A program made the translations under genes and the position numbers. Shown here one piece after another: positions 1 through 1,738 of a stretch of 64,000 nt of DNA. Under the pieces are notes generated by a model. The model was not told the DNA's origin. It worked only from the letters and a program-made list of their open reading frames with translations, and ran no database searches. Each line of letters starts with the position of its first letter. Position 1 is the first letter of the stretch. The DNA lies in the NCBI RefSeq assembly GCF_003351045.1, contig NZ_QQZY01000001.1, forward strand, positions 310,001-374,000, in the 5' to 3' direction. This DNA comes from Gaiella occulta. Lineage in GTDB: Bacteria > Actinomycetota > Thermoleophilia > Gaiellales > Gaiellaceae.

Positions 1-106
1 CGGCCGCCGCGACGCGCAGCTCCTGCTGGAGCGCTTCGACCAGGACGGGCTCACCCGCCGCATCGGCGACCGGCGCGTGCTGCGCCGCGCGGCGCGCGAG
101 GGCTGA
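1..106 (+). CDS. C-terminal end of an unidentified protein (partial)
   Basis: An open frame enters from the left edge (first full codon at position 2) and stops at TGA 104-106. The visible 34 residues are rich in Arg, Leu and Asp and have a short helix-turn character (LLERFDQDGLTRR, then IGDRRVLRRAAREG at the end). The Asp-Gly-Leu followed by a basic strand recalls C-terminal winged-helix ends, but this is too little to name a family. The coding strand is inferred from continuity of the frame and its high-GC codon pattern. I do not recognise the product. Confidence 0.4.
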   Translation, partial: GRRDAQLLLERFDQDGLTRRIGDRRVLRRAAREG

Positions 107-226: not shown

Positions 227-787
227 CTATTCCCTCGCCGCCCGGTCGGCCCATTCGGGCTCGTCCTCGATCCCGACGGCGTCCGCGACCCGGTTGATGT
301 AGTTGAAGTACGCGATCACCTGGATCGCGTCGTGGATGGCGGCGTCGTCCCAGCCGTGGCCGCGCAGGGCCTCGACGTCGGACGGCTCGATCGACGCGGG
401 AGCGAGCGTGAGCTTCTCGGCGAAGTCGCACAGGGCGCGCACGCGCCGCTCGAGCGGCGCCTGCCGGTAGTCGTGGGCGGCGTGGTGGACGATCTCTTCG
501 TCTGCGCCCTCGGCACGGAGGTCGTCGGCGTGCGCGCGCGTTCAGTAGTGGCAGCCGTTCGTGCGCGACACGACGGTGGCGAGCAGCTCGCGCTCCCGGC
601 GGCCGAGACCGGAGGGGCCGAACATGATGCCCTTGTAGAGCTCCATCGAGCGCCGCAGCACGCCGGGCCGCAGGCTCATCGCCTTGACGATGTTGAACAC
701 CTTGCCGGCACGGCCGACCGCCGCGTCGTACTCGTCCTTCAGCGGGCCGGTCGCCTCGTCGGGCTCGATCAAGCGGATGTGCGCCAC
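227..787 (-). CDS. AhpD-like peroxidase-related selenoprotein, UGA read as selenocysteine
   Basis: Carboxymuconolactone decarboxylase/AhpD-fold protein of the uncharacterised peroxidase-related family, about 186 residues if started at GTG 787 (GTG 805 is the alternative). The frame contains one internal TGA at 542-544 and continues on both sides with full family similarity: ATGPLKDEYD and MFGPSGLGRRERELL before it, KLTLAPASIE and AYFNYINRVAD after it. The TGA sits at residue 82, in N-G-C79-H-Y-(UGA)82-T-R-A-H86, where the family has the second Cys of CxxCxxxH. Glu67, Cys79, position 82 and His86 have exactly the spacing of Glu118, Cys130, Cys133 and His137 in Mycobacterium AhpD. A SECIS-like hairpin follows, and a tRNA-Sec gene lies about 0.85 kb away. 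Peroxide or disulfide reduction is inferred from the family. The alternative, a nonsense mutation or sequencing error, is much less likely given the exact position and the nearby selC. Confidence 0.85.
504..526 (-). promoter_or_regulatory. putative bacterial SECIS hairpin after the in-frame UGA
   Basis: On the minus strand, starting 16 nt after the UGA (542-544), the RNA can fold as CCUC/GAGG closing a 6-nt loop CGUGCC (512-517). The stem extends below through one A-G mismatch and one bulged A by three more G-C pairs. The apical loop begins 25 nt after the UGA and has a G among its first two bases. Both points fit the loose published description of bacterial SECIS elements (loop 16-37 nt from UGA, G near the loop start). 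The hairpin lies inside coding sequence, as expected for bacteria. A competing fold (GCACG pairing with CGUGC) exists, so the exact structure is uncertain. Confidence 0.5.
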
Positions 788-1645: not shown

Positions 1646-1738
1646 GGAGCGGCACGGGCCCGGTGGCCCAGCAGGTCTTCAAAACCTGTGCGGTGTGGCA
1701 ACCCCACGCTCGGTCGGTTCGACTCCGGCGCCGCTCCG
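1646..1738 (+). tRNA. selC: tRNA-Sec (anticodon UCA)
   Basis: A 93-nt sequence folds as a selenocysteine tRNA. It has an 8-bp acceptor stem (1646-1653 with 1730-1737), a long D stem GGGCC/GGCCC around a short CGGT loop, an anticodon stem CAGGT/ACCTG with loop CTTCAAA (UCA at 1679-1681), a long GC-rich variable arm, and a 5-bp T stem with loop TTCGACT. The 8+5 acceptor/T architecture, the CTTCAAA loop and the CCGGTG D loop match bacterial selC. The CCA end is not encoded; discriminator G is at 1738. It decodes UGA as selenocysteine together with SelA, SelB and SelD, none of which is in this window. The selenoprotein gene at 227-787 is the likely nearby client. Confidence 0.93.

Follow-up and report, generated by a model that had tools for sequence, protein, structure and literature searches.

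A predicted AhpD-like CxxU selenoprotein gene between selB and the tRNA-Sec gene of Gaiella occulta

The gene at positions 227-787 on the minus strand of the analysed window (64,000 nucleotides of Gaiella occulta, C1:310001-374000) is predicted to encode a selenoprotein in which selenocysteine (Sec) occupies the second cysteine position of an AhpD-type active site. We assign a probability of about 0.97 to this reading as a whole, in which UGA codon 82 would be translated as Sec through SelA, SelD, SelB, tRNA-Sec and a downstream hairpin, and the product would act as an AhpD-type redox relay. The gene adds a member to a selenoprotein family that is already described, a kind known since 2005. 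The features on which this reading depends are listed below in window coordinates.

227..787, minus strand: predicted selenoprotein gene, TIGR01926/CMD (PF02627) AhpD-like peroxidase-related protein; 186 residues, GTG start at 787-785, TAG stop.
542..544, minus strand: in-frame TGA, codon 82, the putative Sec codon at the second position of CxxCxxxH; TGA in 80/80 closest relatives (best 80 of 523).
505..524, minus strand: bSECIS-like hairpin CG-A-CCUC(CGUGCC)GAGG-G-CG, with wobble conservation among close orthologues and, in wider relatives, compensatory C-G to U-A changes.
1..106, plus strand: 3' end of selB (elongation factor SelB), whose 600-codon open frame starts some 1.7 kb ahead of the window.
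1646..1737, plus strand: tRNA-Sec gene; Rfam RF01852, 64.6 bits (gathering score 47).

Translated, the frame runs to 186 codons, ends at a normal TAG stop and is interrupted only by one in-frame TGA; it shows no other lesion, as the initial annotation of this DNA, which placed the TGA at the second Cys of CxxCxxxH, had described it. The active-site motif reads E67-x11-C79-H-Y-U82-T-R-A-H86, so the Glu67 and the AhpD spacing Glu-x11-Cys-x2-Cys-x3-His named in that annotation are both present. The GTG start aligns with the starts of the orthologues. Under the standard code the gene falls apart into ORFs at 542-805 (87 aa) and 227-442 (71 aa), a split that had been foreseen. If the TGA is taken as an amino-acid codon, the product scores 57.2 bits against PF02627 (CMD), for which the cut-off is 23. 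Against TIGR01926, "peroxidase-related enzyme", it reaches 157.8 bits where the cut-off is 81.8, and this second match covers residues 4-178 and hence both sides of the TGA. Since its score against TIGR00777, AhpD alkylhydroperoxidase proper, is 29.2 bits and below the cut-off of 191.95, the protein is, as judged by family models, AhpD-like and not AhpD itself.

Relatives were sought in one genome per species across 84,980 species, and an alignment used as the query returned 523; a scan of genome contigs with the single protein as query found none. Among the best 80 of the 523 (49-74% identity), every one has TGA at codon 82 and none has a Cys codon, the two outcomes between which the initial annotation had proposed that close relatives be compared, and codon 79 is TGC or TGT throughout. 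By their record titles these 80 span Thermoleophilia, Planctomycetota, Acidobacteria, Gemmatimonadetes, Chloroflexi, Neomarinimicrobiota and others; the nearest named records are Thermoleophilia metagenome bins, one of them titled Gaiellaceae. The query carried Cys at position 82 and the search patterns left that codon uncovered, so the ranking of relatives, if anything, favours Cys forms. All 14 orthologues found in 100 related genomes (64-74% identity) likewise have TGA at codon 82; for the most part their contigs recur as the first loci of the larger scan, and they were counted once. In the resulting alignment of 15 orthologues, E67, C79, U82 and H86 are invariant, and strong conservation continues 3' of the TGA, with invariant columns as far as W179. 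Cys occupies the position of Sec82 in more distant homologues (L032-L036, about 36-39% identity) and in the proteins of the solved structures 2PFX and 6K40. Because every close relative has TGA at the homologous codon, the TGA at codon 82 is, on this comparison, not a matter of chance.

The genome contains selA, selB and selD, the three genes that the initial annotation had named as the ones to look for, and a tRNA-Sec gene besides. The selA gene (C1:307217-308257) precedes selB, which starts between C1:308304 and 308379 and ends at 310106, or window position 106; selD lies at C1:188930-189844. The predicted selenoprotein gene is thus flanked by selB, which is convergent with it, and by the tRNA-Sec gene. 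Seven other contigs (L073, L074, L077, L081, L083, L086 and L088), all from Thermoleophilia or related actinomycetotes, also show a selB match immediately downstream of the gene, on the opposite strand. A convincing selA match was absent from 4 of the 15 orthologue genomes, all four being MAGs of 78-88% completeness. The search for tRNA-Sec across relatives was noisy because other tRNA genes score too, giving matches in each of the 101 genomes and each of the 14 controls, and it was left out of the presence/absence counts. Spurious long ORFs overlap the tRNA-Sec gene on both strands (1638-2459, minus; 1424-1861, plus), and clustering of the neighbouring ORFs, which are mostly spurious overlapping GC-rich frames, gave no convincing functional partner beyond the sel genes.

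These observations bear on three readings in which the codon would not specify Sec. That the TGA is a real stop in a broken gene agrees with the two fragments that standard translation yields, yet the protein is conserved beyond a TGA that stands at the same codon in 80/80 relatives (best 80 of 523), and the frame at 227-787 holds no second lesion; the relatives' TGA falls at exactly codon 82, and none of the results that the initial annotation had named as refuting its reading, such as random stops elsewhere in the gene among relatives, appeared. We regard such a nonsense mutation as highly improbable. A sequencing or assembly error would require a single wrong base, but the identical TGA recurs in 80 other assemblies, the work of many projects and drawn from many phyla, which makes the idea untenable, and the gene adjoins sel genes; of the three it is the least probable. 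UGA is reassigned in some bacteria, and the codon might accordingly be read as another residue such as Cys or Trp, or read through without selenium. Against this stand the complete Sec machinery of the genome, tRNA-Sec included, and a formate dehydrogenase in the same genome with a textbook U-H-x-P motif, and we consider such recoding very unlikely, if slightly less so than a broken gene. The selenocysteine reading of the initial annotation is thereby supported at the level of sequence.

The search for a bSECIS element that had been suggested led to the hairpin at 505-524, which has the right spacing and comparative support. It consists of a six-nucleotide loop, CGUGCC, on four base pairs, with two more beyond an A.G mismatch. 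A G occupies the second loop position and the distance from the UGA to the apical loop is 24 nt, both inside the limits published for bSECIS elements, from which our criteria were taken (PMC13188914). Among the 15 orthologues, the block GACCTCCGTGC.GAGGGCGC directly 3' of the UGA is nearly unchanged and the third positions of D89, L90, R91 and E93 are invariant. Identity at third positions averages 0.67 and rises to 0.88 in codons 88-96 (permutation p 0.005); codons 155-164 show wobble conservation equal to that of this segment. Across 79 distinct sequences, 86% of cells allow the hairpin pairs, as against 30-52% when the pairing is slid, and 34 paired cells are doubly changed; in 500 shuffles that keep the relatedness of the sequences, neither value was reached once.

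The isolated hairpin has an energy of -5.9 kcal/mol, short of a published bSECIS threshold of -7.5 kcal/mol or lower (PMC13188914), and the full 45 nt adopts another structure, at -14.4 kcal/mol with a z of +0.4. Folded singly, the window's own sequence has a different minimum-energy structure, and no useful hairpin came from RNAalifold run on two sequences. Since folding of single sequences fails to single out the element, the case for the hairpin is a comparative one, and as the fold is not the one preferred by the window's own sequence we call the bSECIS at 505-524 only probable.

An AlphaFold model of the protein has a mean pLDDT of 82, with a poorly defined N-terminal part, and its best structural matches are 2PFX, 3C1L and 6K40; the CMD-fold debrominase Bmp8 is also among the fold matches. 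We propose that SelB delivers a tRNA-Sec whose charging involves SelA and SelD, that this tRNA decodes codon 82 as Sec, and that the hairpin just 3' of the UGA, for which the comparative data speak, would guide the insertion. The product would adopt an all-helical CMD/AhpD fold. Its Sec82 selenolate would most likely attack an oxidised substrate, either a peroxide or the disulfide of a partner; Cys79 would then form a selenenylsulfide to resolve the intermediate, and the enzyme would be regenerated by a thiol donor. Because Sec82 stands at the position of Cys133 in M. tuberculosis AhpD, selenol-based reduction of a peroxide or disulfide is likely by analogy. A competing view accepts the selenoprotein and differs from our explanation in its functional part alone: the protein would be a thiol/selenol redox adaptor, or catalyse a Bmp8-like reductive reaction, in place of reducing peroxide. 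CMD-fold proteins vary in activity, Bmp8 is one of the matches, and the peroxidase role of TIGR01926 proteins is here putative; the closest structures and families nevertheless carry the names peroxidase-related and AhpD. We hold this view to be a serious possibility, albeit a somewhat unlikely one.

Several known systems resemble the predicted selenoprotein. It shares the Glu-x11-Cys-x2-Cys-x3-His spacing with M. tuberculosis AhpD, in which Cys133, Cys130, Glu118 and His137 correspond by spacing to U82, C79, E67 and H86. That enzyme belongs to a different subfamily and has His132 where Tyr81 stands here; P. aeruginosa PA0269 likewise has Tyr in place of the AhpD His132 (PMC3141380). The TIGR01926-type proteins 2PFX, 3C1L, 6K40 and 2OYO have the same fold, family and Glu/Cys/Cys/His site, but with Cys instead of Sec, and are about 32-38% identical to it. 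NF041238 (AhpD_rel_CFYUT) also comprises CMD-fold CxxU selenoproteins, and our protein scores 76 bits, well under its cut-off of 175. The closest likeness is to the AhpD-like CxxU selenoprotein (COG2128/TIGR01926), which has the same NCBI family and motif, Sec at the second position and a downstream bSECIS; the only difference found is that the present copy is thermoleophilian and lies between selB and tRNA-Sec.

That AhpD-like selenoproteins form a known class, as the initial annotation noted, is borne out by the literature. CxxU AhpD-like proteins were reported in 2005 as a new selenoprotein family in Sargasso Sea data, with 27 sequences in COG2128 (PMC1088965), and in 2008 the GOS data contributed 299 "AhpD-like 1" CxxU sequences (PMC2398784). 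A 2026 review lists the "AhpD-like protein, TIGR01926, CxxU" with MCB9421940.1 as its representative (PMC13188914), and the claim that the second-Cys variant in this subfamily deserved description has to be given up accordingly. The list of selenoprotein families is unchanged by the gene. What it offers is the recovery of a gene left in two pieces by standard annotation, an indication of active Sec use in Thermoleophilia, with a selenoprotein inside the sel locus, and, in its Sec-only best 80 of 523 relatives, a case in which to test why selenium is retained. Our literature search on Sec in Thermoleophilia or on CMD selenoproteins in Actinobacteria found nothing on point. As there is no Cys form among those 80 relatives from several phyla, one may speculate that the clade needs Sec, that it may do chemistry beyond the reach of Cys and that the gene, to judge by its position between selB and tRNA-Sec, may help to retain the Sec system in Thermoleophilia; we rate this combined proposal as rather improbable.

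Sec use in this genome seems not to be confined to a single protein, because two further genes bear a Sec-type TGA. A formate dehydrogenase alpha-like gene (L157, C3:72533-74401) carries a lone in-frame TGA, flanked as SCNRT-U-HAP, and is likely to encode a second selenoprotein. A second CMD protein with an in-frame TGA (L156, C5:225036-225269), in the context QINGCPF-U-IDLNAAG, belongs to a different CMD subfamily and is likely the third. In related genomes, several other CMD subfamilies have TGA at the same place (L029-L031 and L037-L043; CHYU, CPYU, CYYU, CPFU and CPWU), which suggests that the set of CMD selenoproteins is unusually rich there.
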